Source: Candidatus Zhuqueibacterota bacterium
Lineage (GTDB): Bacteria > Zhuqueibacterota > Zhuqueibacteria > Thermofontimicrobiales > Thiofontviventaceae
Assembly: GCA_016931935.1 (NCBI GenBank)
Contig: JAFGDW010000157.1
Location: 1-64,000, forward strand
Direction of reading: 5' to 3'
Length of the DNA: 64,000 nucleotides
The notes under the pieces were generated by a model. It did no database searches and was not told where the DNA came from. It saw only the letters and a list, made by a program, of their open reading frames with translations. Below are positions 11,896 through 61,280 of this stretch, piece by piece. The position numbers and the translations under genes are program-made. Each line of letters begins with the position of its first letter. The first letter of the stretch is position 1.

Positions 11896-12845
11896 TGATT
11901 GGTAAAAATTAGTGAAATTCGTGGTTAAGCTCTTTAGAGTGGACTTATAAATGGAATATTAAAAGTATCTATTCAGTCGTCTCGTCATTTAAAAGAAATC
12001 GCGTTCTGTCACGAAACTGACATGCAATTAAAATTGGATTTTTATTTGACGGCTTAACAATGGAACAGGCAAAACCATTTTGGACAAAACTATTTTGATG
12101 TAAAAATTATCTATGTATAAGCTGTGACATCCTCTCGAAAAGTTTTTTAATTATTTTGCCCTTAATTATTTTGCCAAAGATTTTTAGTATCAGAATTATT
12201 GAGGACAGACTGCCAGAATCCTGTCTTCCATATTAAAAAATAATTTGACAGCGGGAAATAATAAAAGTACACCCCCAAGAAACTCAGGGATCGTATTTCA
12301 TCGTTTAATTTGAAATGATAGCGCTAATATCTAAATGATATACCCTTTCTCCGGACTTCTTGGCGTTCTTTGTAGCTTTGTGGCTCTAAAAAAATATTTT
12401 GCTAATCAGAAAAAACAGAATTAATAATTCATGCTTTATCCCCAAAACGACGTTAAGTATTTTTTCTCCTTTAATCGATCATTTTTCATTCTCCATTCGC
12501 TAATAAAATTTAAAAATCAACCGATATGATTTCTACCACCGCATTATTAGTTTATTTTTTCAACCCAAAATCGGCGTTCATGTAATCATTCCGGTACGTA
12601 TTCGTGACATGAATGTCATAATCATTAAATTGCAGTTTAAATATTAAATTATTGCTGTAATTATTGAACTTTTCATAGCATATGTGTATATTCCGGTCTT
12701 AAAAGCTGACTTCAGAAAAGTTAAAGTTTATGATCGACCTGTACCTTGATATATGATTCGACATGGGTGTTAAAACATGAACGAAGCATCTTTTCAGGGA
12801 ATGGATACGCAATGCTGCTGATTTCGAATTATGTGAGGTTTGTGT

Positions 12846-13796
12846 ATGTACAAGGACAAGTATATCGCAGCTGTTATTCCATGTTATAATGAAGAGAAAC
12901 AGATCGGTAAAGTTATCGCTACCATGCCTGATTTTGTCGATAAGCTTGTCATTATAGATGATCAAAGTACAGATACCACTGTTGCAGTTGTCGAGCACTG
13001 TCGCAAAACGAATGGTAAAATTGTTCTTTTAAAGCATGAAACCAATCAGGGAGTTGGCGGCGCGATTGCCAGTGGGTACAAGTGGTGTCGCGGCAGCAAT
13101 GTCGATGTGGCGGTCGTTATGGCGGGTGACGCACAAATGGATCCGCGTGATCTGCCGGCTATTCTGGATCCGGTGGTTGAAGGAAGCGCCGATTATTCCA
13201 AAGGCAACCGGCTATTCACCGGCGAAGCGTATAAAAAGATACCAAAAGTACGTTTTTATGGAAATGCCATCTTGTCGATGTTGACAAAAATCGCATCAGG
13301 ATACTGGCATGTGGCAGATTCCCAATCGGGTTACACCGCAATCAATAAAAAAGCATTGCAGACGATCAATTGGGATGAAATGTACAAAAATTATGGACAA
13401 CCCAACGATTTGCTTGTCAAGCTGAATGTCTATAACTTCCGGGTTCGTGATGTCGCCATAAATCCAATCTATAATAACGGAGAAAAGTCGAGCCTTAAAA
13501 TTTATAAAGTTGTTTTGTCGCTTTCGTGGTTGTTAGTCAAACTGTTTGTGTACCGTTTAAAAGAAAAATATATTATTCGGAATTTTCATCCGCTGGTCTT
13601 TTTTTACTTTACAGGAGCCATGTCGTTTTTTATCAGTTTTCTGTTATTGTTAAGATTGTTTTACTATTTTTTCTTTCTCAATTTTCGTGTTCCCGATTTC
13701 AACTTTCTGACATGGATGCTGTCACTGCTGATGTCGATTCAGTTTACGCTGTTTGCCATGTGGTTTGATAAGGAAAGTAATAAAGATCTGAGATGA
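12846..13796 (+). CDS. Family 2 glycosyltransferase (dolichol-phosphate mannosyltransferase-like) with C-terminal TM helices
   Basis: 'IAAVIPCYNEEKQIGKVI', 'IIDDQSTDTT', 'VVMAGDAQMDP'; hydrophobic C-terminus. The track start at 12840 is TTG; ATG at 12846 preferred. Confidence 0.85.
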   Translation: MYKDKYIAAVIPCYNEEKQIGKVIATMPDFVDKLVIIDDQSTDTTVAVVEHCRKTNGKIVLLKHETNQGVGGAIASGYKWCRGSNVDVAVVMAGDAQMDPRDLPAILDPVVEGSADYSKGNRLFTGEAYKKIPKVRFYGNAILSMLTKIASGYWHVADSQSGYTAINKKALQTINWDEMYKNYGQPNDLLVKLNVYNFRVRDVAINPIYNNGEKSSLKIYKVVLSLSWLLVKLFVYRLKEKYIIRNFHPLVFFYFTGAMSFFISFLLLLRLFYYFFFLNFRVPDFNFLTWMLSLLMSIQFTLFAMWFDKESNKDLR

Positions 13797-14581
13797 CCGA
13801 TTTCACACTGAAAGCCTATCACAAATATTTAGATGCGATTTTATCATCATCGCTTAATGTCATTACTTTGGGGGAATATTTTAAAAACCGGCCAACGGAA
13901 TCCTTTTGTATTATACGTCATGATGTCGATCGAAAACCGATGCATGCGTTGCGAATGGCAGAATTGGAATATAAAATGAATATCCATGCCTCCTATTTTT
14001 TTCGCACACGGAAACATACATTTAAACCGGGCATTATTCGACAGATTTTTGAATGCGGCCACGAAATCGGCTATCATTACGAAAACGTATCTGATACACA
14101 TGGGGATTTGGATAAGGCCCTGTTCGATTTTAAAAACCAGTTGAATAAGCTACGTCATTTCGTTCCAGTCTCAACAATTTGCATGCACGGCCGACCCTTT
14201 TCACCCTACGACAACCGGCGCCTGTGGCAGAATAGCACAAACAAACGTCTGCTCAGTTCAGAACTGGGAATCGCAGGGGATGTTTATCTGGATATTGATT
14301 ATACAACAATTCGCTACATTAGCGATACTGGCAGGAACTGGCACCAATCGCGATCTAACATAAGGGATCGTGTGGTATCTGATTATCAACCTGACTTTTC
14401 AGGATACGATGATCTGGTCAAGTTTTTTAGAACAGCAAAATCGCATCCGATCATCTTTCTGACCCACCCGGAGCGATGGAGCCATAATTGGGGGGATTGG
14501 CTGATCCAATGGTCAAAGGATTATGTGATAAATTTTGCGAAAGCGCTGGTCAATTTGAAATCAAATATTTTATCGAATTAG
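13793..14581 (+). CDS. Polysaccharide deacetylase-like (NodB-homology) protein
   Basis: 'CIIRHDVDRKPMHALRMAELE', 'ASYFFRTR', 'GHEIGYHYE', 'IFLTHPERW'; ATGA overlap with the preceding gene. Confidence 0.65.
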   Translation: MTDFTLKAYHKYLDAILSSSLNVITLGEYFKNRPTESFCIIRHDVDRKPMHALRMAELEYKMNIHASYFFRTRKHTFKPGIIRQIFECGHEIGYHYENVSDTHGDLDKALFDFKNQLNKLRHFVPVSTICMHGRPFSPYDNRRLWQNSTNKRLLSSELGIAGDVYLDIDYTTIRYISDTGRNWHQSRSNIRDRVVSDYQPDFSGYDDLVKFFRTAKSHPIIFLTHPERWSHNWGDWLIQWSKDYVINFAKALVNLKSNILSN

Positions 14582-14685
14582 ACTGGATTAACAAGATCGA
14601 CAGATTTTGATTCGAACATTTTTAACAAATTGAACATGTTTTCAATGTGTCATCGCTGTGAACGACGCTAAATTTGTACAAATAT

Positions 14686-15984
14686 ATGAACAATAAAAAA
14701 CTTTGCATATTTGGTCTTGATTGCGCCACACCCGAATTTGTCTTCGATAAGTTCAAGGCCGAGCTTCCGACATTTAATAGACTAATGCAGCAAGGCAGTT
14801 GGGGACGTTTAGTCAGCACCACACCGCCGATTACGGTTCCTGCCTGGAGCGCGATGACGACGGGCAAAGATCCGGGGGAACTGGGATTGTACGGCTTTCG
14901 CAATCGAATCGGCACCGGTTATGAATTGGCCTCGTCCAACAATTCCGCAGTCAAAACGGAACGTATATGGGATCGTTTGAACCGTCTGCATGGTACACGT
15001 TCAATTATTATTGGCATTCCGCAGACATTTCCGCCGCGCATTGAGAATGGAATCATGATCTCCGGTATCATGACACCATCGAACGAACTCGATTACTCAT
15101 GGCCACACAGCTATAAATCAACGGTGGAACGAATTTCTAACGACTATGTGTTTGATGTTAAAAATTTCCGGAAGCGGGACACCAATGAGTTAAGAACTGA
15201 AATCAATCACATGACCCGAACACGATTCAAACTGATTCGTCACATGCTTGAAACTGAGCAGTGGGATTTCATGATGATGGTGGAAATCGGGCTCGATCGT
15301 ATGCAGCATATTTTTTGGGGAAACGAATCCGTATTGCTCGATTACTACAAATTACTTGATACGGAAATCGCCAAAACAATTGAAATTCTTCCTGATGATA
15401 CACGCATTATGGTCGTTTCGGATCATGGCGCCCAGTCTATGAACGGCGGATTTTGTATTAATGATTGGCTGACCAAGCATGGGTACTTAACGCTAAAAAC
15501 ATCTCCGACATCCGTAACCCCATTTTCCGAATCATTGGTTGATTGGGAGCATACGCAAGCCTGGGGAGCAGGCGGCTATTACGGCAGAATATTTCTGAAC
15601 GTTCAGGGGCGCGAGCCACAAGGTGCGATTTGTGAGAATCAATATCAGTCCATTCGTGATCAGATTCGACAAAAAATACGCGATCAATCTTCCGGTTTGA
15701 AAAACAACGTATTTTATCCGGAACAAATTTATAAGCAGGTGAATGGCACTGCGCCCGATATGCTGGTCTATTTTGATGAATTAAATTTTCGCAGCATCGG
15801 CAGCATCGGACATGATGCCGTTCTTGTCGCCGAAAATGATGATGGCAATGACCTGGCGAATCATTCCCAACACGGTATTTTCATTGATTATAATCCAGCG
15901 TGGCTTAACGATCACAATCAATCGCTTGGGGATGTGCAGATTACCGATATTTTCACGCTCGTTTTAAATGCATTTAGCAATTGA
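14686..15984 (+). CDS. Alkaline-phosphatase superfamily / type I phosphodiesterase-nucleotide pyrophosphatase-like protein
   Basis: 'IFGLDCATPEFVFDKFKAELPTFNRLMQQGSWGRLVSTTPPITVPAWSAMTTGKDPGELGLYGFRNR', 'VVSDHGAQSM'. The track start at 14674 is TTG; ATG at 14686. Confidence 0.8.
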   Translation: MNNKKLCIFGLDCATPEFVFDKFKAELPTFNRLMQQGSWGRLVSTTPPITVPAWSAMTTGKDPGELGLYGFRNRIGTGYELASSNNSAVKTERIWDRLNRLHGTRSIIIGIPQTFPPRIENGIMISGIMTPSNELDYSWPHSYKSTVERISNDYVFDVKNFRKRDTNELRTEINHMTRTRFKLIRHMLETEQWDFMMMVEIGLDRMQHIFWGNESVLLDYYKLLDTEIAKTIEILPDDTRIMVVSDHGAQSMNGGFCINDWLTKHGYLTLKTSPTSVTPFSESLVDWEHTQAWGAGGYYGRIFLNVQGREPQGAICENQYQSIRDQIRQKIRDQSSGLKNNVFYPEQIYKQVNGTAPDMLVYFDELNFRSIGSIGHDAVLVAENDDGNDLANHSQHGIFIDYNPAWLNDHNQSLGDVQITDIFTLVLNAFSN

Positions 15985-16012
15985 TTTCAGTTTAAATGCC
16001 AAAGGATACACC

Positions 16013-16402
16013 ATGCAAACAGCCCAACAGACTATCGAAAAAGTTGAAACCCAAATACGACCCGATTCCGATCAGGTATTGATTGAATTTGAAGACCGGG
16101 GAGAATGCTACCGTTTTTCCTATCGCGATTTCAATCAGGTGGAAGCGTATTGTGAAAACGAATGCATGGGAATTCAATTTCTCATCAATGCAAATTTATT
16201 AAGAAAACTGGTTAATTTTTTATTAAAACTTGACGATACTCCCCCCTATTCGTTGGATGATTTGTCTTCAGAAGCTGTAAAAAATATGTTGATTTCATCC
16301 AATGAAATTGAACTAATCGAAAATAATTTCGGGACATCAGATCTCAGAAAAGTTGCTCGGATTGCCGCCAAGCAAACATATAATTTTATCCGAAAGCAGT
16401 AA
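16013..16402 (+). CDS. Small acidic protein of unknown function
   Basis: ATG at 16013 preceded by an AAAGGA-type RBS; 129 aa MQTAQQTIEKVETQIRPDSDQVLIEFEDRGECYRF...; in tight register between flanking genes; no family recognised. Confidence 0.7.
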   Translation: MQTAQQTIEKVETQIRPDSDQVLIEFEDRGECYRFSYRDFNQVEAYCENECMGIQFLINANLLRKLVNFLLKLDDTPPYSLDDLSSEAVKNMLISSNEIELIENNFGTSDLRKVARIAAKQTYNFIRKQ

Positions 16403-16404
16403 GA

Positions 16405-17682
16405 ATGGGCCAACGATTATTAATTATGGGTGGCAGTGTGCGTAGTTGTGCGGATGAAGAAACCATTATCCACGCAACCAAACAGATCACTAATGAGCCG
16501 GACTTGTACGAATACATTGAGCATGTCGCCCGATGTCATGCCATCAGCAACTCGGAAGGCAGTGGTATTGCCGTTGCCTATGGCGCGATGAAATATACGA
16601 ATGATATTAAGTATGTACGTCTGAATGAGTACATAAATTCCAAAGGCCAGTTTCATCAACAGCAGGAATTGCTGGATTTGATGATAGATGCGGACGGCTA
16701 TGTATTTCTAACGCCGGTGTATTTTGGTGATCGCTCATCGCTTTTATTTGATTTGTTCACTGCTGTTAAACAGCACGGCCTGGATTTTGATGGAAAAGTA
16801 TCCGCTGTCGCCTCGGTGGGCGCCAAACGCAATGGTGGGCAGGAAACGACCAATATTTACACATTGTACAATCTGATGCAGATGAAAAGTCTGGCGGTAG
16901 GCAACGGTCCACCAACATCGCAATACGGTGGAACGCTTGTCGGTGGCAATAAAGGTACGATGGATAACGACTATTTCGGTATTATGACAGCGATGGGAGT
17001 CGGAACAAAAATTTCCCAAACCATGAATTTGTTGGAAGCAACCGGCAGCTCCAAACCTGTCATCTCGTTCTGGTTCACAGAAGATATGCCGGATCGCCGC
17101 TATTACCGATATTTAAAATCATTACTCCCGAAATTGCCGGCAACTGCCGAATGGCGAATATTGGATTTGCTTAATTTCAATTTCCATCAATGTTTTGCAT
17201 GCAATCGCTGTCCATACGAAATGGGTGAACATTCCTATAAATGCGTCATTCGCGATGACGATATGGCGATCGTTCAGCCATCATTGCTTGAATCGGATGG
17301 ATTTATCGTTTGCGGTCTGAATTATGAAGATGAGGCGCAAAAACAATCGGTTTATCAACGGTTCGTCGAACGAACCCGCTACATCCGTCGCAATGATTTT
17401 ATGCTGACCAATCATCCATTTATGACGCTATCGATGAATGAATTGTTTGCGGATCATTCATATGATTTAAAAGCATTCACAGCATTTTTACGACATAACA
17501 CAATCGCCCATCGCGGACTCCGCGTATTTGAAACAAAACATGGTTTGGAAGAACCGGACATGAATGACTGCCTGCATTCGTTCGTCGACATCACTGCAAA
17601 AAGCAAATCCCAGCGCATGCAAGCACGGGTCATTCAAAAATCGGCCTACGAGGCCATCGGGTATGAGTCAAAATGGCAATAA
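16405..17682 (+). CDS. Tandem flavodoxin-fold protein: NADPH-dependent FMN reductase-like plus iron-sulfur flavoprotein-like domain
   Basis: N-half 'LLIMGGSVRS', 'DGYVFLTPVYFGDRSSLL', 'VASVGAKRNGGQET'; C-half 'NFHQCFACNRCPYEMGEHSYKCVIRDDDM' (CxxCxxC...C...DDM). Confidence 0.7.
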   Translation: MGQRLLIMGGSVRSCADEETIIHATKQITNEPDLYEYIEHVARCHAISNSEGSGIAVAYGAMKYTNDIKYVRLNEYINSKGQFHQQQELLDLMIDADGYVFLTPVYFGDRSSLLFDLFTAVKQHGLDFDGKVSAVASVGAKRNGGQETTNIYTLYNLMQMKSLAVGNGPPTSQYGGTLVGGNKGTMDNDYFGIMTAMGVGTKISQTMNLLEATGSSKPVISFWFTEDMPDRRYYRYLKSLLPKLPATAEWRILDLLNFNFHQCFACNRCPYEMGEHSYKCVIRDDDMAIVQPSLLESDGFIVCGLNYEDEAQKQSVYQRFVERTRYIRRNDFMLTNHPFMTLSMNELFADHSYDLKAFTAFLRHNTIAHRGLRVFETKHGLEEPDMNDCLHSFVDITAKSKSQRMQARVIQKSAYEAIGYESKWQ

Positions 17683-18770
17683 CCTATCATTGTAAAAAAA
17701 CTAGCGCTGCGCTTGAGCACCCGTATATGCTTTCATTTGGAACCGTACATACATTCGATTCTGTCATGACCTATCTTCTGGATGATGACAGATTGATCGG
17801 TGTCGGTGAATCAACCGCATTGCCCGGGTACAGTAAAGAAACCCAGGACGATATTTATCAGTGGTCATCCGATTTTCTGGAACTGCATGCTGAAAAATTA
17901 CCGGATCAAATGCATAACATCATCTGCAAGCAATCCACGCCGGGATTCTTGCAGGCATCGCTGTTATCTGCGATTGAATCGGCAATTATGCATAGCGACA
18001 TTTTTGCAATGAATGAAATTGCAGTACCGATTATCGGACTTGTCACGCAGCGTGCTTACAGCATGCTTCAAGCGGAAATTGAATCGCTGGTATCGCGCTA
18101 TAATACGCTAAAAATGAAAATCGGGATGGATGTCTTTTTTGATGCCCAGCGCGTACGCATGGTACAGATGCTTGTGCCGGAACAAACAAAAATCCGGCTG
18201 GATGCCAATCAGGCATTTACTTATAATCAAATTGAAGAATTTCTCTACTGGATCGATCCGGATCAAATTCAATATATTGAGCAGCCGTTGCCGATTGACC
18301 AATGGGACGAAATGGCAAAACTAAATGCTGCATTTCCCCAATTCAATTTTATGCTGGATGAATCTATCAGTTCGATTGATGATATTGATCGCGCTGCGGA
18401 TATGAATTGTTGTCATTATATAAAGCTCAAATTGTTTAAATGCGGCTCTGTCAGCCGTACAATTGATTTAGCCCGGCATGCCCATGAACGTGGGTTAAAA
18501 GTGATTCTGGGAAACGGTGTGCAAAATATAATCGGCGCTTTATACGAGGCATATATTTATCATCAATTACTGAATTTGGGAATTGATGTCACGGCGACAG
18601 AGTCGATCGGCCCATTGAAACTTCGGGTGCAACCGGAGTCATTGTTTCAATTAAATGGTGCGACGTTAGTGTTGAATCCAAAACAGATATTGGTGCATGA
18701 ATATCATCATTCTCAATTGCTACAGCCGGAATTCGCTGGCAGTGATCAACGCGCTCGATTCGTCCTATAA
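17673..18770 (+). CDS. Enolase superfamily, muconate-lactonizing subgroup-like (dipeptide epimerase / OSBS / racemase type)
   Basis: KxK 'LKMKIGMD'; metal ligands 'IRLDANQ', 'YIEQPLP', 'FMLDES'; C-terminal Lys 'IKLKLFKCG'; all catalytic landmarks appear present. Confidence 0.85.
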   Translation: MAITYHCKKTSAALEHPYMLSFGTVHTFDSVMTYLLDDDRLIGVGESTALPGYSKETQDDIYQWSSDFLELHAEKLPDQMHNIICKQSTPGFLQASLLSAIESAIMHSDIFAMNEIAVPIIGLVTQRAYSMLQAEIESLVSRYNTLKMKIGMDVFFDAQRVRMVQMLVPEQTKIRLDANQAFTYNQIEEFLYWIDPDQIQYIEQPLPIDQWDEMAKLNAAFPQFNFMLDESISSIDDIDRAADMNCCHYIKLKLFKCGSVSRTIDLARHAHERGLKVILGNGVQNIIGALYEAYIYHQLLNLGIDVTATESIGPLKLRVQPESLFQLNGATLVLNPKQILVHEYHHSQLLQPEFAGSDQRARFVL

Positions 18771-19857
18771 TCTAATCGGGGGAGCAGTCGGAGACACAAC
18801 ACAATCACCGTTTATCGATCGTTGGCTAAAATCAAAACGATTGTCGGAGATTTTCAGGCACACGGCGCCAACGGATGATATCGACACATTTCGCGATGAT
18901 ATTATTCAGGCATGCAAAAACTATCGGGCGGATGCAATTCTGGCATCCGGGACAACAATCACAAATTATTTATCATTCATTAAAAATGATTTTCAAGCTT
19001 CAACAAATTGCACGGTGCTTGTTGAAGATTATATGAAGCTAAAAACCGTGGCGGATAAATGGAACTGTTATGAACTCTGTCAAAAAATCGGAATCCCAAC
19101 GCCACGATCTGTTCTTTTAACATCGGAAAGCGACCTGCAAACAATAGTGAATCACTTTCAATTTCCGGTAATTGCCAAGCCGCGGGATTCGTTTGCATCG
19201 CGGGGGGTACACCTATTTTCATCACAGGATGAATTCAACAAGTATGCATCCACTCAGACTAACGATAAATTTCTAAACAGCACATATCTCGTTCAGGAAA
19301 TTGTCAGTGGTGAGCTGCATGATGTCACTTCCTGTAGCAATAGTGGCCGGGTGATGTCCATGCTTACGCAGCAGCGATTGATGACACTGTACGACTTTGG
19401 CGGCGGCGGCATTATTAATCAAACCACGGATGAGCCGGATTTGCGAACAGATGCTGAAAAGATTATCAAGTATTTGAATTGGAATGGTATACTGGAATTC
19501 GATTTTATCGTCAACGAACGTGGCCATTACCTGCTTGAATGTAATCCCAAAATTTGGGGCACCACGGCGTTGACAGTGGCAGCAGGCTTAAATATGCCGC
19601 AACAATTAATCGATCTGTTTGTATTGAAAAAAAACGTTGAACCGATGGCCAATTATCAGGTGGGATTACAATACAAGTGGCTGTTCCCGGAATGTGTGTA
19701 CCACTGGACGACAAAACCGCGAACAGTTGCAGCCGTCACACGGCGAATAAAAAACACGTTTCACCGTAATGGAGCACACCGGGTAATGCATAATATAGCT
19801 TGGAGCGATACGCTGCATTTAATAGGAATTGTGCTCAATAAGAGCCAGTTTTCTTAA
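18697..19857 (+). CDS. ATP-grasp ligase (carbamoyl-phosphate-synthase L-chain-like)
   Basis: 'VADKWNCYELCQKIGIPTPRSVLL', 'FPVIAKPRDSFASRGVHLFSS', 'LVQEIVSGELHDVT', 'GILEFDFIVNERGHYLLECNPKIWGTT'. Confidence 0.85.
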   Translation: MNIIILNCYSRNSLAVINALDSSYNLIGGAVGDTTQSPFIDRWLKSKRLSEIFRHTAPTDDIDTFRDDIIQACKNYRADAILASGTTITNYLSFIKNDFQASTNCTVLVEDYMKLKTVADKWNCYELCQKIGIPTPRSVLLTSESDLQTIVNHFQFPVIAKPRDSFASRGVHLFSSQDEFNKYASTQTNDKFLNSTYLVQEIVSGELHDVTSCSNSGRVMSMLTQQRLMTLYDFGGGGIINQTTDEPDLRTDAEKIIKYLNWNGILEFDFIVNERGHYLLECNPKIWGTTALTVAAGLNMPQQLIDLFVLKKNVEPMANYQVGLQYKWLFPECVYHWTTKPRTVAAVTRRIKNTFHRNGAHRVMHNIAWSDTLHLIGIVLNKSQFS

Positions 19858-19984
19858 TAAATGTAATGGGGATAGTGTTTCCTGTTTTAATTGCAAAACA
19901 AGAAAATGGGTATGGGTTGAGTAAAGTAATTTTTCTGCTTTCCTGAAACAATTTTTTGCTATTTGAACTAAACCCTTCCCCCAT

Positions 19985-20009
19985 CCCCTTCCCTTACAAA
20001 GGGACGGGG
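19985..20009. repeat. Intergenic inverted repeat
   Basis: CCCCTTCCCTT-ACA-AAGGGACGGGG, 10/11 stem, within the 370-bp spacer before 20227. Confidence 0.6.
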
Positions 20010-20226
20010 AGAATTTAACGATTTAATTCTCATCCCTAATTATTACTATCCATAATCAGATTTTATTTCTTTTTCACGAGCACCAGGAAAAACAAAAACA
20101 GAAAACCAGAATAATTAAAATTCATCATAAGTCAAGTATTAGATTTTTCACTTTGTGTTCTTGGTGACTTCGTGGCAAATTTTTCGATAAACAGTGTTAT
20201 ATCATATACGTTAAAGAGAAAAAATT

Positions 20227-22254
20227 ATGTGTGGAATTTTTGGTGTTGTCTGTAAATCCGAACAGACGAATAATCTGCCCAAATCGTTACAATTTCTCGC
20301 CCGGCTTTCCGAGTCGCGTGGCAAGGAAGCTGGCGGCTTTATGTTTGCGCTGAATAATTCCATTCATGTATTTAAACGTCCGCAACCAGTGACGGTGTTA
20401 CTAAAAAGCAGTGAGTATCGAACATATTATCAATCGACCATACAGCAAAAAATCTTAGCAAGTAATACACCGGTTGTAGCCATTGGCCATTCGCGTTTGG
20501 TTACAAACGGAGCCCAAACAGTGCATGCCAATAATCAGCCGGTCGCAACCGAAGGCGTGGTTGGCGTGCATAACGGCATCATTGTGAACGACCAGAAGCT
20601 CTGGAAACAATTTGGCTGGCAGCATCCGGATAATGCATTGGATTCGGAGATCATTTTTCGCTTGAGCCGGTACTTCCTGACTAAATCAGGTTCATTGCCT
20701 GATGCTATTGCGTGTACGTTCCAAACCATCAAAGGCTCGGCTTCAATTGCCATGTTAATAGATGATCAGAATTATCTGACACTGGCAACTAATAACGGCT
20801 CCGTTTACACGTGTCGGAACGATGCGCATAATTTCCTGGCATTTGCGTCGGAACGCTATATTGTGGATAAATTGATTGAGCAACCGTTTCTCAATGGTCA
20901 TTCCCCTGGATGTATCATTTCTCAGCTAGTTCCGGGAACTGCATGCCTCGTCAATTTAATGGATTTGACTGAGCAACACTTTTTTTTGAATGACAGTCAT
21001 TCGCTGGATTCAACCCGGTTCATACCGACAGCGAAACGGACACTGGTGGATGTACAGCCAGCACAGTCGGACTCGGCGAGATATAAGGGAATTACAATTC
21101 ATCCAAATGGACCGGTTCCGAAAAATTTTATCACGCATGCGGACAAGGTTGAACGCGCCGTAAATACCTTGCAGCGCTGTACACGCTGTTTGTTGCCATC
21201 CACCATGCCATTTGTTGATTTTGATAAAGACGGTGTGTGCCGGTACTGCCGAACCTATCAATCGGTTCCGGTAAAAGGTCATGCGGCGTTTGAGGCGCTG
21301 GTCGCGCCATATCGGAAAACACGCCACCAACAGGATGTGATTATCGGCTATAGCGGCGGCCGTGACAGCAGCTACGCGTTGCATTACTTTAAAAAAGTGT
21401 TAGGCATGCAACCCATTACCTACACGTATGACTGGGGAATGGTCACCGATCTGGCGCGGCGAAATATTTCCCGTATGTGCGCCAAACTGGGAGTGGAAAA
21501 TATTCTCATTTCCGCAGACATTCAGCGGAAACGGACATTCATTCGGCAAAATATTGAAGCCTGGCTAAAGCGACCACATCTCGGTATGGTGCCGTTGTTT
21601 ATGGCCGGCGACAAGCAGTTCTTTCATTATGCAAAAGTGCTGAGCAAGCGTACCGGCATCGATCTGGTGTTTTATGCGCGCAATGTGTATGAGAAAACCA
21701 ATTTCAAAACCGGATTCTGCGGGATTCATGAAAATCAGGATTTAAACAAACGGGTGTATGAACTTTCCCTGGCGGGAAAAATGAAATTGACATATTTCTA
21801 TGCCAGACAATTGCTAACAAATCCGGCATATTTAAACAGTTCACTGATTGATACCGGCTGGTCATTCTTCCTTTCCTTTTTCACGAAACATCTGCATCGC
21901 CAGATTTTTCAGTACATTCCCTGGAATGAACACGAAATAATGACCACTTTGCGGAACGAATACGACTGGGAAACTGCCGGCGACACATCCGCCACATGGA
22001 GAATCGGCGATGGGACGGCTGCATTCTACAATTATATATATTATGTTGTTGCCGGTTTTACAGAAACCGACACATTTTTAAGCAACCTGATCCGCGCAGG
22101 ATTAATAACACGCGCTGCTGCACTCAAACGTGCGCAGCAGGAAAACAGACCACGATTCGAGTCCATCAGGTGGTACTGTCAAATTATCGGACTCGATTTT
22201 GAAAATACACTGCGAGCAATTCAGCAGATACCAATCATGTATCAAATGGGGTGA
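20227..22254 (+). CDS. GlmS-type class II glutamine amidotransferase fused to WbpG-like N-acetyl sugar amidotransferase (PP-loop)
   Basis: N-terminal 'MCGIFGVV...SRGKEAGGFMF...IGHSRLVTNG...VGVHNGII'; C-terminal 'CTRCLLPSTMPFVDFDKDGVCRYCRTY' and PP-loop 'IIGYSGGRDSSYAL'. Confidence 0.85.
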   Translation: MCGIFGVVCKSEQTNNLPKSLQFLARLSESRGKEAGGFMFALNNSIHVFKRPQPVTVLLKSSEYRTYYQSTIQQKILASNTPVVAIGHSRLVTNGAQTVHANNQPVATEGVVGVHNGIIVNDQKLWKQFGWQHPDNALDSEIIFRLSRYFLTKSGSLPDAIACTFQTIKGSASIAMLIDDQNYLTLATNNGSVYTCRNDAHNFLAFASERYIVDKLIEQPFLNGHSPGCIISQLVPGTACLVNLMDLTEQHFFLNDSHSLDSTRFIPTAKRTLVDVQPAQSDSARYKGITIHPNGPVPKNFITHADKVERAVNTLQRCTRCLLPSTMPFVDFDKDGVCRYCRTYQSVPVKGHAAFEALVAPYRKTRHQQDVIIGYSGGRDSSYALHYFKKVLGMQPITYTYDWGMVTDLARRNISRMCAKLGVENILISADIQRKRTFIRQNIEAWLKRPHLGMVPLFMAGDKQFFHYAKVLSKRTGIDLVFYARNVYEKTNFKTGFCGIHENQDLNKRVYELSLAGKMKLTYFYARQLLTNPAYLNSSLIDTGWSFFLSFFTKHLHRQIFQYIPWNEHEIMTTLRNEYDWETAGDTSATWRIGDGTAAFYNYIYYVVAGFTETDTFLSNLIRAGLITRAAALKRAQQENRPRFESIRWYCQIIGLDFENTLRAIQQIPIMYQMG

Positions 22255-23303
22255 TGAAGATGATGACGATGATTTCATTTGCAAAGAACAGTGTTCTGAA
22301 ATTGATGATTCATGGATTGAACCTATACTATTGGTTCAGTAATCGCAAACGAACCGGATTTACGCAACAAATGGTAATATCATCACGGGAAGTCAAAACC
22401 GCGCTTCCGCTGGATGGACCAAAATTTATGCGCTATCCGTCGTTCGTTATAGAAAACGACCTGCCATATCTCGTAAGTTACGGGTTTCAGAATGGCTGGA
22501 GAATTTTTGTTCAGCGGAATTTCAGAACACCAGTTTGTTTGACACCGGATTCAGGTTACCAAAACAATAAAGGACCATCTGCCGTGTTTTATGGTGGATT
22601 TCTATATATTGCCTTTCATTCCGGTTTTCGCGGCCACCGCCAGATAAAGGTGGCAAAATCGAATCATACACTTATCCATATCGACGAAGTAACAATTGTC
22701 CCGGACGGTTTAAAAGGCGATATGCACTATCCGTTCCTTACTGTGAATAACGATACGATGTTTTTATTATTCTCGATTCGTCGAGAGTCGTATCGCTTTG
22801 AAAATTATTATGTCATAGTCAACGACTCCCTGAAGTGGTCAAAACCGCATCGCGTGCAATTACCCGGCACCCAGGGACGGCGACTGCAATGCGTCTGCGA
22901 TGAAAACGGCCTGTTCTACGTGACGTGGGAAACGTATGGCAAAGTATACCTCGGAATTTCATCGAACTTCAAACGTTGGGAAGTTGCCGACATCATCGAC
23001 GTAAATTCCTATCGTCCGCGGATTTCGAAGGTGGGAGAACTTATCCGCATCGTTTATGAAAAACACACCGATGATATCAACCAAATTAAACTGGCAACGT
23101 GGTGTAAATCCAGCATTCACTATGAAACCCTTTACGAAAGCTGCGATTATCTGTCACGGCCATCCAATATTATTGATGTCGGCGATCACACACTGGTTGC
23201 ATGGACATCGCATCAAATTGGCGGTGAACAGATATTTTATCGACAAATGAAAGTCGCACCGGTTGTCGAACCGGAGTATATTTTCGAAGAGGTATATGAG
23301 TAG
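22254..23303 (+). CDS. BNR/sialidase-like beta-propeller protein
   Basis: 'GPSAVFYGGFLYIAFHSGFRGHRQIKVAKS', 'VNDSLKWSKPHRVQLPG', 'VYLGISSNFKRWEVADI'; TGATG junction with the upstream gene. Confidence 0.5.
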   Translation: MKMMTMISFAKNSVLKLMIHGLNLYYWFSNRKRTGFTQQMVISSREVKTALPLDGPKFMRYPSFVIENDLPYLVSYGFQNGWRIFVQRNFRTPVCLTPDSGYQNNKGPSAVFYGGFLYIAFHSGFRGHRQIKVAKSNHTLIHIDEVTIVPDGLKGDMHYPFLTVNNDTMFLLFSIRRESYRFENYYVIVNDSLKWSKPHRVQLPGTQGRRLQCVCDENGLFYVTWETYGKVYLGISSNFKRWEVADIIDVNSYRPRISKVGELIRIVYEKHTDDINQIKLATWCKSSIHYETLYESCDYLSRPSNIIDVGDHTLVAWTSHQIGGEQIFYRQMKVAPVVEPEYIFEEVYE

Positions 23304-23476: not shown

Positions 23477-24583
23477 ATGAGTATTTTATTCTTTTTTGTG
23501 CATCCATCAAAATTTCATTTGTTTAAACATACAATCCGCCATTTGAAGTCAAAAGGATATGATGTTGATATTGCGATTGTTTCCAAGGATGTGCTGGAAC
23601 AGCTTGTTAAAACCGAAGGCTGGCATTACACCAACATTGCCCCAAACGGCCGTCGATCCAAACGTCTGAAGGGGTGGGCAGCAACGATATATCATGCCTG
23701 GCGCACGATTCGGGCGTTGCAACGTCTGACTCGCTCCAAAAAGTACAATCTGTTCGTAACAGATGACTTGCTAAGTGTAATCGGCTGGATGCGCAAAGTG
23801 ACAACCCTGCATTTTCAGGATAGTGATTTGCATGTAGTACCTGAAAGCGCTGCGCTATTGGAATTAGCCACTTATGTGGTGGCGCCGTCCTATACAATTC
23901 TCGGCCGCTATAGTGTCAAAAAGTTACCATACAATGGCTACCACGAACTGGCGTACCTGCATCCGAATTATTTTGAACCGGATGAATCGATTGTGTCGTC
24001 AATTCGAAAACCGGGTGTCCCCTATTTCATCATTCGATTGGTATCGTTAACCGCGACCCACGATCAGCACAAACGGGGATTGAATGACGAGCAGGTGCAT
24101 CGTCTTATTAGTTTACTAAGTCAGGCCGGGGATGTATATATCTCAGCCGAACGGCAGTTGCCGGATGATCTTGAACCGTACCGGCTGCCAACACCGCCGG
24201 AAGCCATCCTGCACGTACTGGCGTTCGCCGATATGTTGATAAGCGACAGCCAGACCATGACCACCGAAGCCGCGTTGCTGGGAACACCGGCAATTCGCTG
24301 CAATGACTTTGTTGGCCGCATCAGCTCGATGGAACGGCTGGAGCACGAATACGGATTGACATTCGGATTTTTACCAGATAAATTTGATGATATGATGGCA
24401 TTTATCCATCAACTACTCGACATGCCCAATCGGAAAACAGTCTGGCAAAAACGCCGAAAACGCATGTTGATAGATACAATCGATGTCACGGAATTCATTA
24501 TAGAGACCATTAAAGAATACAGCAGGAAAAGTGATGTGCGGTATCGCGCTGTGCTACAGTCCAGTACGTGTCGGGCAGAATGA
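23477..24583 (+). CDS. DUF354-like putative glycosyltransferase (GT-B, UDP-GlcNAc 2-epimerase-like fold)
   Basis: 'ILFFFVHPSKFHLFKHTIRHLKSKGYDVDIAIVSKD', 'ADMLISDSQTMTTEAALLGTPAIRCNDF'. Confidence 0.8.
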   Translation: MSILFFFVHPSKFHLFKHTIRHLKSKGYDVDIAIVSKDVLEQLVKTEGWHYTNIAPNGRRSKRLKGWAATIYHAWRTIRALQRLTRSKKYNLFVTDDLLSVIGWMRKVTTLHFQDSDLHVVPESAALLELATYVVAPSYTILGRYSVKKLPYNGYHELAYLHPNYFEPDESIVSSIRKPGVPYFIIRLVSLTATHDQHKRGLNDEQVHRLISLLSQAGDVYISAERQLPDDLEPYRLPTPPEAILHVLAFADMLISDSQTMTTEAALLGTPAIRCNDFVGRISSMERLEHEYGLTFGFLPDKFDDMMAFIHQLLDMPNRKTVWQKRRKRMLIDTIDVTEFIIETIKEYSRKSDVRYRAVLQSSTCRAE

Positions 24584-26429
24584 AACGGAAACGATCCGGC
24601 GGATGAACGCGTTGCAACGCCATCGCGGTCCTGATGATGAGGGTATCTCCGTTCACGCTCATTGCATTCTTGGACACGTGCGGTTAGCAATTATCGATTT
24701 GACGGATGCCGGACACCAACCGTTTGTATCGACTGATGGCCGTTTTGAACTGGTGTACAACGGAGAGATATATAATTACATCGAATTACGTTACGAATTG
24801 ACAGCACTGGGCTGGCAGTTTCATACACAGACAGATACTGAAGTGTTATTAACAGCCTGGCAGCAATTTGGGCCATCCTGTTTGGATAAGTTAAATGGCA
24901 TGTTTGCCTTTGCCGTTTATGATACAATTGAAAATATGTTGTTCTTTGCCAGAGACCGGTTTGGAATCAAACCGCTGTATTACACACACATGGGGCATCA
25001 CTGGTATTTTGCTTCGGAAATTAAAACATTTTTGGCAATACCCGATTTCCAGCGAACATTGAACTATCAGGCATTGTTTGAATTCCTGGTTTTTAATCGG
25101 ACAGATATAGGTGAATCAACCTTTCTTGAGGAAATCAATCGGCTGCCCAAAGGGCATTACGCATTGTTAAACAATGAAGAATTGACTCTCCGGCAATGGT
25201 GGAAACCGAGTTCACAGAATACAGAATTTCAACCGCTGCAATCGCTTTATGAATCGATTGACGAGACAATGACGTCATCAGTTGCGCTCCGCCTGCGCAG
25301 TGATGTACCGATGGGCACCTGTTTAAGCGGCGGCCTGGATTCATCGATCATTACCGGGATTGTTCATGAGCATCATGCTGTGGAGACCGATTTTGCAACA
25401 TTCACCGCTGCGTTTCCGGGCTATCCGTTCGACGAAACAAACTATATTGATGCGCTGAACAGAAAGTATCATTTCAGGAACATACGAACGATGCCGTTGG
25501 CAGAAAAATGTCTGGATAATTTTGCGGCATTTGTTCGTTGCCAGGATGAACCAACACCAAGTCCGTCATACTTTGCTCAATATGAAGTTATGCGGCTGGC
25601 ACGGGAGCACGGCATCACCGTAATGCTTGATGGCCAGGGCGGCGATGAAAATTTTGCTGGGCATCAATATATGCACGCATACCATCTGCTTGGCTTGCTG
25701 TATGCCAGGCGTTGGGACAAGGCATTTCATGAAGGTTGGAACATACTTCGGCGCAAGCAGGAATGGCTGACGTGGCAAACATTTCTATATGGATTATTAC
25801 CAAATTCGCTCAAAAAGCAATCAATTCGAGCGACGCGTCCGTTTATCAGTGCGGATTTTTTCCAGCATCACATTGGATTAAGCCCGGTATACAACCAATT
25901 TCTGAATGCGCGTTCGCTGAACGATTCGATTGTCCAGCATTTCAAACATAAACTGGAACACTTGCTCCGCGCTGAAGATCGTAACTCGATGGCATTCTCA
26001 ATTGAAGCACGGGTTCCGTATCTCGACTACCGGCTTGTGGAATTGCTATTGAATATCCCGGAGTCGCTAAAAATTCATGCCGGTGAAACAAAGCGGTTAC
26101 AAAAGCAAGCATTGGGAAAATACACGGTGCCGGAGATTCTCAACCGTACGGATAAAGTCGGATTTGCAACTCCGGTACGGGAGTGGATGCAAACACCCAT
26201 ATGGCAAGCACATACGCAGCGCAGCGCAGATTTTCTTCACAATCGGCTGCCGGACGTATTCCCGACCATTCGATTGGCAACACTGAATCCGATCGATTGC
26301 TGGAAACTAAATCAAGTCGCTGAATGGATTACTATTTTTATCGATGAGAAAAAAACTGACAATTCTAATCTTCGCCCGGTTGTCCGATCAGAAGCTGAAG
26401 TCAAAATTGGCGCCAATCGCCCGGCTTAA
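24534..26429 (+). CDS. asnB: Asparagine synthase (glutamine-hydrolysing)-type amidotransferase
   Basis: 'MCGIALCYS', 'RHRGPDDEG', 'YNGEIYNY', 'ARDRFGIKPLYY', PP-loop 'CLSGGLDSSIITG'. Start fixed by the required N-terminal Cys; overlaps the upstream gene by 50 bp. Confidence 0.9.
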   Translation: MCGIALCYSPVRVGQNETETIRRMNALQRHRGPDDEGISVHAHCILGHVRLAIIDLTDAGHQPFVSTDGRFELVYNGEIYNYIELRYELTALGWQFHTQTDTEVLLTAWQQFGPSCLDKLNGMFAFAVYDTIENMLFFARDRFGIKPLYYTHMGHHWYFASEIKTFLAIPDFQRTLNYQALFEFLVFNRTDIGESTFLEEINRLPKGHYALLNNEELTLRQWWKPSSQNTEFQPLQSLYESIDETMTSSVALRLRSDVPMGTCLSGGLDSSIITGIVHEHHAVETDFATFTAAFPGYPFDETNYIDALNRKYHFRNIRTMPLAEKCLDNFAAFVRCQDEPTPSPSYFAQYEVMRLAREHGITVMLDGQGGDENFAGHQYMHAYHLLGLLYARRWDKAFHEGWNILRRKQEWLTWQTFLYGLLPNSLKKQSIRATRPFISADFFQHHIGLSPVYNQFLNARSLNDSIVQHFKHKLEHLLRAEDRNSMAFSIEARVPYLDYRLVELLLNIPESLKIHAGETKRLQKQALGKYTVPEILNRTDKVGFATPVREWMQTPIWQAHTQRSADFLHNRLPDVFPTIRLATLNPIDCWKLNQVAEWITIFIDEKKTDNSNLRPVVRSEAEVKIGANRPA

Positions 26430-29893: not shown

Positions 29894-31840
29894 ATGTGCG
29901 GTATTACAGGTAAAATATTCATTGACATCAATCATCAGGTTGATCCTCACTTAATCCGTGAAATGACCTCCACACTGACGCATCGCGGACCGGACGATGC
30001 CGGGATGTTCGTCCGTGAGAACATGGGTATTGGTATGCAACGTCTGAGCATCATCGATGTAACCGCAGGCCATCAGCCGATGTTTAATGAAGATCGTTCC
30101 AAAGTTATTGTGTTCAATGGTGAAATCTACAATTACCGATCGATTAAAAACGATTTGGTGAAACGCGGACATCACTTTACATCAAATAGCGATACAGAAG
30201 TGATCATTCATAGTTATGAAGAATTCGGCGTCGATTGTCTTCAACATTTCAATGGAATGTTCGCGTTTGCTATTTTTGATGTTACCGACAATTCACTGTT
30301 TATCGCGCGTGATCGGCTTGGTATAAAACCACTGTATTACTATCTCGATTCCGAACGACTTCTATTCGGTTCGGAAATCAAAGCTATTCTTGCCGATCCG
30401 TCCATCCCCCGCGTTTTAGATCTTGAAGCGCTCGATCTGTATCTTCGGTTTTTATATGTACCAGCGCCGTTCAGTATGTTTAAAGGTATCAGTAAGCTGC
30501 CCGCCGCACATTACGGGATATTCACATCTGAAGGACTGAAATTACATCAATATTGGGATGTTCCATTTCAGCCGGATACATCTGCATCTGAATCTGATTT
30601 TCAGGCTGAATTCAACGAACTGTTTCGTGAATCGGTCGAAATGCGGATGATCAGTGATGTGCCATTGGGTGCGTTTCTCAGTGGCGGCATCGATTCCAGC
30701 AGCATTGTGGCGATGATGTCACAGGCGAGCAGCACACCAATAAAGACATTCTCCATCGGTTTTAAGGAAGGCGGCTACCATGATGAAACAGCCTATGCGC
30801 GGCAGGTTGCCGACTACTTTAACACCGACCATACCGAGTTTCACGTCGATGCAAATGTGCTGGATTTGCTGCCAACGTACATCCACCATTTCGATGAACC
30901 GTTTGGAGATTATGCTGCCTTCCCCACGTTTCTCGTTTCCAAACTGGCACGGGAACATGTGACGGTTGTACTCACCGGTGATGGCGGTGATGAAGTGTTC
31001 GCCGGTTATGAACGTTATGCGTCCGAGCAATTGGCGACATACTATGGAATGCTTCCCAAATCATTTCGAGACCGGGTCATCCTGCCGCTACTCCAGGCGG
31101 GACAATCGGTCATATCGTCGGACTGGCGATTGTCACACTATTTCGCTGATGCCATTAAGAAAACCAGGCTCATGAATATCGATCCCGGCGACCGCTATAT
31201 CTTGAGTTTTCACAAATTCAATAATGCATTGCGTTCAACGCTCTACACATCACCGCATCCTGATAATATCCACCTGTTTCGTCAGTACTGGGACCATATT
31301 AATAGCAGTGACCGGTTATCACAGCAACTTTATCTCGATATAAAAACCTCGCTGCCCGACGACATGTTAACTAAAGTCGACCGTACAACTATGGCCACTT
31401 CGCTGGAGGCACGCGTACCTTTTCTCGATCACCGTATCGTAGAATTGGCGGGCCGAATGCCGTCATCCATGAAACTGCGCCCCTGGCTGTTGAAACGGTT
31501 TGTTAAACGAGCAATGCACGGCATATTGCCGGAAGAAATTATAAAACGCCGCAAACACGGTTTCTCAGCCCCCATGGATCGCTGGCTGCGCCATGACATG
31601 CGTGAGTTGTTATGCGATACATTAAGTGAGCAGGCGCTCAATCGGCATGGATTATTTCATTCGCATTGTGTGCAATCGTTGATCACCAACCATCTAAATG
31701 GCGTCATGAATAATGGCGTGCGATTGTTTATGCTGATGGTATTTCAGATGTGGCACGATACCTATATCCTGAATTATTCTCACGCATCCGAACCACAAAG
31801 CAAAATCAGTCATTATTTGTGGAACGAATCGGTATCATGA
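29894..31840 (+). CDS. asnB: Asparagine synthase-type amidotransferase
   Basis: 'MCGITGKI', 'THRGPDDAG', 'FNGEIYNY', 'FLSGGIDSSSIVAMM', 'VVLTGDGGDEVFAGYERY'. Confidence 0.92.
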   Translation: MCGITGKIFIDINHQVDPHLIREMTSTLTHRGPDDAGMFVRENMGIGMQRLSIIDVTAGHQPMFNEDRSKVIVFNGEIYNYRSIKNDLVKRGHHFTSNSDTEVIIHSYEEFGVDCLQHFNGMFAFAIFDVTDNSLFIARDRLGIKPLYYYLDSERLLFGSEIKAILADPSIPRVLDLEALDLYLRFLYVPAPFSMFKGISKLPAAHYGIFTSEGLKLHQYWDVPFQPDTSASESDFQAEFNELFRESVEMRMISDVPLGAFLSGGIDSSSIVAMMSQASSTPIKTFSIGFKEGGYHDETAYARQVADYFNTDHTEFHVDANVLDLLPTYIHHFDEPFGDYAAFPTFLVSKLAREHVTVVLTGDGGDEVFAGYERYASEQLATYYGMLPKSFRDRVILPLLQAGQSVISSDWRLSHYFADAIKKTRLMNIDPGDRYILSFHKFNNALRSTLYTSPHPDNIHLFRQYWDHINSSDRLSQQLYLDIKTSLPDDMLTKVDRTTMATSLEARVPFLDHRIVELAGRMPSSMKLRPWLLKRFVKRAMHGILPEEIIKRRKHGFSAPMDRWLRHDMRELLCDTLSEQALNRHGLFHSHCVQSLITNHLNGVMNNGVRLFMLMVFQMWHDTYILNYSHASEPQSKISHYLWNESVS

Positions 31841-33963: not shown

Positions 33964-35868
33964 ATGTGCGGAATTTGCGGAATAATTCGTACGGATGAGC
34001 AGCCGGTCGATAAACTTCATCTGCGTGATATGCTGAATTCAATCAGACATCGTGGTCCCGATGATGAAGGCATGTGGACGAATGCCAATGTTGGTTTGGG
34101 CCATCGTCGCTTAAGCATTCTTGATCTGTCAATGCAGGGACATCAACCGATGTCAACTGAAGATCAAAAGGTACAGATTACTTATAACGGTGAAATTTAC
34201 AATTACAAGGATATTCGAAAAATTCTGGAAAGTAAGGGCTATACGTTCCGTTCCAACACCGATTCTGAAGTGGTTCTGCATGCTTATCAGGAATGGGGCG
34301 CTGAATGTCTCGAACGATTCAACGGCATGTTTGCCATCGGCATCTGGGATGGCGTTCGGCATCAGTTATTTCTGGCGCGCGATCGGTTAGGGATTAAGCC
34401 GATATTCTACTATCATGATCAAAACGGATTGGCATTTGCATCGGAAATAAAGGCGATTCTGTCGCTCCCGCACATTAAGCGGGAAATGAATTATGAAGCG
34501 CTGCACCACTATCTGTCTTTGAATTATGTGCCGGCGCCATTGACACTGTTTGAAAATATCCTGCAACTCGAACCCGGCCAATGTTTGCTCTTTGAAAATC
34601 ATCACCTGAAAACATGGAATTATTGGGATTTGAAATTCGGCGCTGGTAACGAGCGAAAATCAGAACGCTATTACCTCAACGAACTAAATGCGCATCTGGA
34701 ACGCGCTGTAACCATGCGAATGATCAGTGACGTGCCGCTGGGCGCATTTTTGAGCGGCGGGGTTGATTCCACAGCGGTCGTTGCGTTCATGAAGCAGCAA
34801 CATAACGAGCCGGTGAAAACGTTTACGATTGGCTTTCAGGATGCCAGCTATAATGAGCTTCCGTACGCGCAAATAATTTCCGACAAATTACACACCGAAA
34901 ATTATTATGAAATCATCAAACCGGATGCGATAAACACCCTTGAAAAAATTGTCTGGCACAGTGAAGAACCGACGGCAGATGCATCGATGATCCCGATTTA
35001 CTTTTTATCACAAATGACCCGGAAACACGTCACAGTTGCGCTTTCCGGCGATGGGGGTGATGAGATATTTGCCGGTTATGAAACGTACCAGGCATCCTAT
35101 TTATCGCAGTTATATCGATATGTTCCGCAGGTCATCCGCCACAACATTGTTCGTCGACTACTGGAACAATTGCCAGTTTCCGATAAGAAGATGAATTTCG
35201 CCATGAAAGCCCGCCGTTTTATCAATGGCGCCGACTATCCTCTGCCGGAAGCGCATTTCCACTGGCGAATTATTTTTAATGAGAGAGAAAAACGATCATT
35301 ATACAATTCAGATACTTACCATAGAATGGGTGTATTTTATAGTCCGGATTTGTACAATTTATATTTTTCTCGTTCCCAGATTAGCAATCCGTTGCAACAA
35401 ATGCTTTACACCGACACACGCTATTACCTGCCCAATGACATGCTGGTAAAAGTCGACCGCATGAGTATGGCTCATGGTCTGGAAGTGCGCGTACCGTTAC
35501 TGGATCATCAGCTTGTAGAATTTATGGCGACGGTGCCTAATCATTTCAAATTAAAATATTTTATTCATCGGAAATATTTGTTGAAAAAGATACTGGCACA
35601 ACGCTCGCTATCTATCCCCTATCACCGAAAAAAAGCTGGTTTCAATATGCCCATCAGCCGCTGGATTAAGGAAGATTTAAAAGAATATACATATGATGTT
35701 TTATCATCTGAAAATATCAACCGGCTCGGAATATTTAACGCTAACGTTATCATTGCCATGTTAAATAACCATCTGCGTGGCAAGGCGGATCACACGTATC
35801 AAATCTGGTCATTACTCATATTAATGTTATGGCACAATCAGTTTATTGCAGGGAAGCCTCTTCAATGA
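33964..35868 (+). CDS. asnB: Asparagine synthase-type amidotransferase (XrtA-cluster-type position)
   Basis: 'MCGICGII', 'RHRGPDDEG', 'YNGEIYNY', 'FLSGGVDSTAVVAFM', 'VALSGDGGDEIFAGYETY'. Confidence 0.92.
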   Translation: MCGICGIIRTDEQPVDKLHLRDMLNSIRHRGPDDEGMWTNANVGLGHRRLSILDLSMQGHQPMSTEDQKVQITYNGEIYNYKDIRKILESKGYTFRSNTDSEVVLHAYQEWGAECLERFNGMFAIGIWDGVRHQLFLARDRLGIKPIFYYHDQNGLAFASEIKAILSLPHIKREMNYEALHHYLSLNYVPAPLTLFENILQLEPGQCLLFENHHLKTWNYWDLKFGAGNERKSERYYLNELNAHLERAVTMRMISDVPLGAFLSGGVDSTAVVAFMKQQHNEPVKTFTIGFQDASYNELPYAQIISDKLHTENYYEIIKPDAINTLEKIVWHSEEPTADASMIPIYFLSQMTRKHVTVALSGDGGDEIFAGYETYQASYLSQLYRYVPQVIRHNIVRRLLEQLPVSDKKMNFAMKARRFINGADYPLPEAHFHWRIIFNEREKRSLYNSDTYHRMGVFYSPDLYNLYFSRSQISNPLQQMLYTDTRYYLPNDMLVKVDRMSMAHGLEVRVPLLDHQLVEFMATVPNHFKLKYFIHRKYLLKKILAQRSLSIPYHRKKAGFNMPISRWIKEDLKEYTYDVLSSENINRLGIFNANVIIAMLNNHLRGKADHTYQIWSLLILMLWHNQFIAGKPLQ

Positions 35869-60386: not shown

Positions 60387-61279
60387 GCAATTATTTTTGG
60401 AACATATTGGCCAGACTGGCTTATCCGCTGTTCTGGGAACGTTACAAAAAACAGGCATCCGCCCTGGGATTAAGAGAACCGGTATTCGTGCTTTCATTCG
60501 ATTGCGACACGGATGCCGATGCCGAAGCCACTGTGGATATATTGGAATGGTTGACAGCACACGACATAAAAATCAGCCTGGCTGTCCCCGGTGAACAATT
60601 ATTAAAGCATGCCGATCTTTATCGGGCTGCTGCCGAACATGCCGATTTTATCAATCACGGCGCTCGCCCCCATGCCGAATGGCATGATGGCCGGTACTGG
60701 AGCACAACCTTTTACGACCAAATGTCAGTATCCGATGTGGTGAATGATATTGTACAGGGGCATCGGATAGTGTGTGACACGACCGGTAAAATTCCCCGGG
60801 GATTTCGCGCACCGCATTTTGCCCATGTGCAACACCCCCGTTTGCAAAGAAAAATTCATCACGCGTTACGAAAATTGAAATATGCCTATTCGTCATCGAC
60901 GCTTCCGCGTGAGGCATTTTTTAAGGCGCCAATTTATAAGATCGATGAAATCTATGAAATTCCTGTAACTGGCCGCTATAATGCGCCGTTCAATGTATTC
61001 GACTCATGGAGCCACGTTCACAGTCCTGAATTTCCGACGATTCTCCAAACGTATCCGCGTCGCTTACAGGATACTGTGGATGCCCTCCAGGAATTTAATA
61101 TTCCCGCAATTCTGAACTATTATGTCGATCCTTCGCACGTAATTAAACAACCATTATTTTACGAAACGCTATTAACAATTCAGGAGCAAGGTATCTTATT
61201 TTATAGTTTTGAAGATGTGCTTGTTCGTCTGCACCTGATCGAACAGCCGCACCCACAATATGAGGAAGCAACGCTATAA
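60383..61279 (+). CDS. Polysaccharide deacetylase-like protein
   Basis: 'FVLSFDCDTDADAEATVDILEWLTAHDIKISLAVPGEQL', 'FINHGARPHAEWHDG', 'PRGFRAPHF'; ATGA overlap with the upstream gene. Confidence 0.75.
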   Translation: MSNYFWNILARLAYPLFWERYKKQASALGLREPVFVLSFDCDTDADAEATVDILEWLTAHDIKISLAVPGEQLLKHADLYRAAAEHADFINHGARPHAEWHDGRYWSTTFYDQMSVSDVVNDIVQGHRIVCDTTGKIPRGFRAPHFAHVQHPRLQRKIHHALRKLKYAYSSSTLPREAFFKAPIYKIDEIYEIPVTGRYNAPFNVFDSWSHVHSPEFPTILQTYPRRLQDTVDALQEFNIPAILNYYVDPSHVIKQPLFYETLLTIQEQGILFYSFEDVLVRLHLIEQPHPQYEEATL

Positions 61280-61280
61280 T

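Follow-up and report, generated by a model that had tools for sequence, protein, structure and literature searches.

A fused GlmS-type glutaminase and N-acetyl sugar amidotransferase-like protein from a surface-glycan cluster of a Candidatus Zhuqueibacterota bacterium: a probable self-contained amidino-sugar synthetase

Gene and domain organisation

The window (the whole stretch of 64,000 nucleotides that was analysed) carries at 20227–22254 (+) a gene for a fused glutaminase and N-acetyl sugar amidotransferase (NASAT)-like protein of 675 aa, which was assigned by means of Pfam, NCBIfam, its relatives and an AlphaFold model. Translation gave one unbroken frame of 675 codons from ATG to stop, in exact agreement with the coordinates proposed in an earlier note on this DNA. 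The GlmS-type class II glutaminase domain (20227–20961, +; residues about 1–245; nucleophile Cys2) was delimited from Pfam, GlmS models, invariant columns and Foldseek. The protein starts with MCGIFGVV, and its N-terminal half was matched by GATase_6 (41.6 bits, cut-off 27) and GATase_7 (37.2 bits, cut-off 25); the GlmS models of NCBIfam aligned to residues 1–205 only. The residue set of class II glutaminases is present (Cys after Met, Arg/Thr, Asn-Gly oxyanion, and Asp). An interdomain stretch or linker follows (20962–21165, +; residues about 246–313, limits approximate), recognised by its lower pLDDT and from length classes, and is mostly absent from a short form of the protein of about 606 aa.

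The NASAT domain (WbpG/WbuX-like, AANH/PP-loop; 21166–22242, +; residues about 314–672) was assigned from the NCBIfam WbuX model TIGR03573, which matched residues 316–656 (E 1.5e-38), and from a Foldseek match to 8WEX. The TIGR03573 score (133 bits) lies under the curated cut-off (203 bits), so that by the NCBI rule the protein is a relative of this subfamily and not a member. The tetracysteine (zinc) motif C318-x2-C321 ... C338-x2-C341 (21178–21249, +; residues 318–341, CTRCLLPSTMPFVDFDKDGVCRYC) was located by translation, by the NASAT-domain alignment and by the zinc in 8WEX, and follows the pattern CxxC...[GN]xCxxC. The PP-loop SGGRDS (residues 376–381; 21352–21369, +) has the SGGxDS form of the AANH fold and lies within SGGRDSS (residues 376–382). 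SIS sugar isomerase domains and Asn_synthase (PF00733) were not found in the protein by Pfam, the latter being present in the neighbouring AsnB-type genes, and the QueC model was absent among its NCBIfam and Pfam matches. The earlier reading of a class II GATase, opening with MCGIFGVV and fused in cis to a WbpG-like half with a Cys cluster and SGGRDSS, was thus confirmed for both halves.

Genomic context

Across the window runs a long surface-glycan cluster that encodes glycosyltransferases and methyltransferases, together with a flippase-like protein, AsnB-type amidotransferases and a carbamoyltransferase. The gene following the fusion (22251–23303, +; 350 aa, no family match) overlaps its end by 4 bases and is possibly co-translated with it, and 369 bp separate the upstream ATP-grasp gene from the fusion gene. 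A DUF354-like protein (23477–24583, +; Pfam DUF354, neighbour cluster 25), probably of a glycosyltransferase-type fold, is 39% identical to a neighbour of the fusion in a further genome of this class (locus L111 in G041). A divergent polysaccharide-deacetylase-like protein (13793–14581, +), in whose relatives Polysacc_deac_1 is weak, is 35% identical to the gene adjoining the fusion at that locus; relatives of both proteins also lie near fusions at other loci. The GT2 glycosyltransferase of the polyprenyl-phosphate type (12840–13796, +) belongs to the commonest neighbour family of long-form fusions. Genes for glycosyltransferases, Wzx-type flippases and sugar modification recur in the neighbourhood of the fusion relatives. 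Neither a route leading to FucNAc or an N-acetylated uronic acid nor a wbp-type sugar pathway was recognised among the window genes read.

Several further features of the region were recorded. Besides the fusion, the 64-kb cluster holds four AsnB-like glutaminase/Asn-synthase genes (24531–26429, 29894–31840, 33964–35868 and 61260–63188), the third and fourth of which were called from sequence only. A run of phosphodiesterase-like, 144-aa unknown, FMN-reductase-like, enolase-superfamily and ATP-grasp genes (14674–19857) looks like a small-molecule cassette inside the glycan cluster. The ATP-grasp, enolase and FMN-reductase genes were considered as members of the fusion's pathway and rejected, since the neighbour groups that recurred at the retrieved fusion loci included no relatives of them. 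The intergenic region upstream of the fusion (19971–20013) contains an element of roughly 40 bp with the core CCCTTACAAAGGGACGGGG. It is a dispersed repeat of which the genome holds at least nine other partial copies, and three of these lie within 70 bases of a contig start. Downstream of the window (positions 64000–83000 of contig C291), at least seven large TPR-repeat membrane proteins are encoded as tandem paralogues.

Catalytic residues and predicted structure

Sixty-four fused proteins from many phyla were aligned end to end; one locus (L057) was omitted because its range holds a stop. Cys2, R90, T93, N116, G117 and D139 of the glutaminase half and the SGGRDS of the PP-loop were invariant in all 64 proteins, and in the NASAT-domain alignment the four zinc cysteines were retained in every row, fused and stand-alone. 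Judged by these residues, both halves look intact and the GATase does not look degenerate.

The AlphaFold2 model of the whole chain had a pLDDT of 91.2 and a pTM of 0.91. When it was submitted to Foldseek, GlmS (2j6h, E 2e-14), a NASAT (8WEX, E 7e-14) and asparagine synthetase (1ct9, E 6e-12) were matched. By sequence, the closest solved structures were the Legionella NASAT 8WEX for the C-terminal half and E. coli GlmS for the N-terminal half. The zinc site is seen in the NASAT structure 8WEX, and cleavage of ATP to AMP by NASATs was proposed in the same study (PMC10607449).

Distribution of the fused architecture

A scan of GTDB genomes returned at least 209 stretches encoding relatives. Among the 80 best of these, 79 matched from residue 1 to at least 609 (about 38–48% identity), and the remaining one was truncated by a contig end. 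Since these relatives are nearly full length and the 64 aligned proteins keep the catalytic residues, the fusion is no assembly artefact. Relatives were found in Planctomycetota, Verrucomicrobiota, Myxococcota, Chloroflexota, Patescibacteria, Bacteroidota, Ignavibacteriota, Omnitrophota, Bacillota, Pseudomonadota, Campylobacterota and other phyla, and in one archaeal MAG (Woesearchaeota). Within the window's own phylum the distribution is patchy, as in 3 of 82 genomes a NASAT match fell within a frame as long as the fusion. One Ignavibacteriales locus (L042) encodes two fusions, one of the long form (679 aa) and one of the short form (603 aa), which suggests different acceptors for the two forms.

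Full-length relatives on plasmids are annotated as "7-cyano-7-deazaguanine synthase", "glucosamine 6-phosphate synthetase" or hypothetical; by fold, the QueC- and GlmS-type names suit no more than one half of the protein, and they are apparently misannotations. The earlier note had asked whether the architecture was already common and characterised. It is common, and no characterised member was found among the open-access papers and solved structures searched; nor did the open-access literature searched contain a description of the fused architecture. Rather than being confined to this locus, the fusion is a NASAT variant that occurs widely and has no name of its own.

Phylogeny of the NASAT domain

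A tree of NASAT domains was built from 69 fused and 23 stand-alone sequences. All fused domains formed a single clade (support 100/100) apart from the 23 stand-alone sequences sampled, the order among the latter being unsure because some of their rows have very long branches. The cysteines, SGGxDS, D402, N413, D462 and R629 are common to the fused clade and the WbuX-type stand-alone enzymes. The fused clade has in addition a conserved set of its own: W403, R411-R412, K435-R436, N442, W446, E489, F493-K494 and W591 to A598 (WRIGDGTA). From this pattern of residues, the fused enzymes would share the ATP chemistry of the WbuX type and would have a different acceptor pocket.

Stand-alone NASAT-like genes with fusion-like scores in two genomes (G024 and G025) were examined as possible unfused forms and discarded, both falling outside the fused clade; no GATase gene was seen adjoining the one in G024. 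The stand-alone NASAT-like gene of a third genome (G007), at 5031–6065 (–) of locus L110, was likewise placed outside the clade. It lies near AsnB-like, acyl-CoA dehydrogenase, acyl-CoA ligase and phosphopantetheinyl-transferase-like genes, a neighbourhood which indicates that NASAT relatives exist outside sugar clusters.

Search for HisH/HisF partners

NASATs of the WbpG/WbuX type usually take their ammonia from a separate HisH/HisF pair. The window's genome (92% complete) contained exactly one NASAT match, the fusion gene itself. Strong HisH and HisF matches occurred together with a HisA-like match on contig C330, a set that resembles a histidine operon; a second HisH match was weak (31.8 bits). 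No dedicated or second HisH/HisF pair, whose absence the earlier note had asked to confirm, was found in this genome beyond the set on C330, and the counter-case that it had named, a degenerate GATase with HisH/HisF partners encoded just outside, is not borne out by this result and by the intact GATase residues.

No other full-length NASAT match was obtained in 10 of 14 other fusion genomes. When 11 fusion genomes were searched for HisF2, strong matches (348 and 295 bits) were found in two only, both of which have a full-length stand-alone NASAT, and each match lay on the contig of that NASAT within about 1.5 kb of its gene; the other nine gave only ordinary HisF/HisA-like scores. HisH and HisF were present together at 6 of 80 fused loci, and at five of these a stand-alone NASAT is encoded separately; at the exception (L064), HisH/HisF lie near the fusion and no second NASAT was seen. 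From the HisF2 search and these counts, the HisH/HisF pair tracks the stand-alone NASAT and not the fusion.

Taylorella asinigenitalis ATCC 700933

The short-form fusion of Taylorella asinigenitalis ATCC 700933 (L077) is located in the O-antigen locus, where genes for a Wzx-type flippase and for a polymerase-like membrane protein flank it, and is the sole NASAT of the genome. Also encoded at the locus are a glycosyltransferase and the enzymes of a QuiNAc4NAc-type module, namely a sugar phosphotransferase, an acetyltransferase of the NeuD/PglD type, an aminotransferase of the PseC/PglE type and a dehydratase of the PseB/PglF type; a TviB-type UDP-GlcNAc C-6 dehydrogenase (686 bits, cut-off 592) is encoded elsewhere in the genome. 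Neither HisH nor HisF was found in this genome. In another Taylorella genome (G096, 1.7 Mb) no fusion was found, the only matches being weak ones to the glutaminase half. The O-antigen of ATCC 700933 is reportedly a disaccharide in which QuiNAc4NAc is combined with an acetamidino sugar, the latter probably 2-acetamidino-2-deoxyglucuronic acid. The gene content fits this structure, which was treated as a lead and not as a test. A solved O-antigen of the strain is cited in the Taylorella genome paper (PMC3250509).

Proposed function and alternatives

The fusion is probably an amidino-sugar synthetase that is self-contained, depends on glutamine and serves the making of surface-glycan precursors. 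This assignment is based on the profile and fold matches of both domains, the invariant residues, the single fused clade, the lack of a dedicated HisH/HisF pair, the glycan-gene neighbours and the gene content of T. asinigenitalis. The self-contained enzyme predicted in the earlier note is thereby supported; the nature of the product (amidino or amide) and the transfer of ammonia are what we infer. The N-terminal GlmS-type domain would hydrolyse glutamine through Cys2, as its intact residues suggest, and the ammonia would move inside the protein to the C-terminal domain. There, by analogy with the NASAT family, the PP-loop would spend ATP, probably to AMP and PPi, and activate the N-acetyl amide oxygen of an amino sugar, which is probably nucleotide-linked; displacement of the activated oxygen by ammonia would then give an acetamidino sugar. 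The glutaminase in cis would substitute for the HisH/HisF pair of WbpG/WbuX, as the gene content supports. Points against the assignment are the WbuX score below the cut-off, several conserved and likely acceptor-side residues unlike those of WbuX-type enzymes, the HisH/HisF pair at L064, and the missing recognisable route to an N-acetylated uronic acid or FucNAc in the window.

The main rival is the amidation of a carboxylate in the manner of asparagine synthetase, for example of a uronic acid to a uronamide, which would yield an amide and not an amidine. The overall logic shared with AsnB and the Foldseek match to 1ct9, the departure of the acceptor-side residues from WbuX-type NASATs, and the uronic-acid-forming UDP-GlcNAc dehydrogenase of T. 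asinigenitalis speak for it. It is nonetheless considered unlikely, as the C-terminal half is clearly NASAT kin by sequence and fold, with the zinc tetracysteine motif, and four ordinary AsnB-type amidotransferases, which would be suited to amide formation, are already encoded in the window. Somewhat less probable still is an acceptor outside the classical glycan sugars, a small molecule or lipid-linked intermediate that would undergo another amide-to-amidine or amidation step. The upstream cassette-like genes (ATP-grasp, enolase superfamily, FMN reductase and phosphodiesterase) and the distant NASAT-like gene in the acyl-CoA ligase/AsnB cluster of L110 lend themselves to such a reading, against which stand the recurrent glycan-gene neighbours of the relatives and the position of the L110 gene outside the fused clade.

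The GATase domain might also be a structural leftover, with ammonia coming from solution or from housekeeping HisH/HisF. Free ammonia serves some amidotransferases as well, and housekeeping HisH/HisF occur in most genomes, that of the window included; yet the invariance of the six glutaminase residues across many phyla and a T. asinigenitalis genome without HisH/HisF to act in trans make this explanation very improbable.

Beyond the probable synthetase function, it is proposed tentatively, as a possibility on the weaker side of even, that the fused clade constitutes a separate amidotransferase family of single origin, which has spread over many bacterial phyla and one archaeal MAG. Its acceptors would be unlike those of the WbpG/WbuX enzymes, namely 2-acetamidino uronic acids in the case of the short form and, for the long form, perhaps sugars that the adjacent GT2 enzyme hands on to polyprenyl phosphate. 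If this is true, amidino glycans could occur in organisms without a HisH/HisF pair. Amidino sugars are unusual positively charged groups of O-antigens and flagellar glycans. If the synthetase assignment is right, the fusion would represent a second route by which their synthesis is supplied with ammonia. The marker of this route would be a single gene that is easy to find and is currently named QueC, GlmS or hypothetical in databases, and amidino glycans would become predictable from sequence. A single-chain enzyme should also be simpler to reconstitute than the WbpG/HisH2/HisF2 set.

Comparison with known systems

The plasmid-borne proteins named 7-cyano-7-deazaguanine synthase or glucosamine 6-phosphate synthetase are relatives of the fusion over its full length (39–43% identical). 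GlmS (glucosamine-6-phosphate synthase) shares with the fusion an N-terminal class II glutaminase that has Cys2 and the same catalytic residues, whereas the fusion lacks the sugar isomerase domain and has a PP-loop enzyme as its C-terminal half. The plan of AsnB, an N-terminal class II glutaminase followed by a C-terminal PP-loop ATP pyrophosphatase, is also that of the fusion, but the C-terminal half of the latter is NASAT-like instead of PF00733 and carries the zinc motif. The WbpG-, WbuX- and PseA-type NASATs (TIGR03573; 8WEX) resemble the C-terminal half in the zinc tetracysteine, SGGxDS, fold and glycan-cluster context; the fusion differs from them in having its own glutaminase, no HisH/HisF partner, a score below the cut-off and conserved residues of its own.
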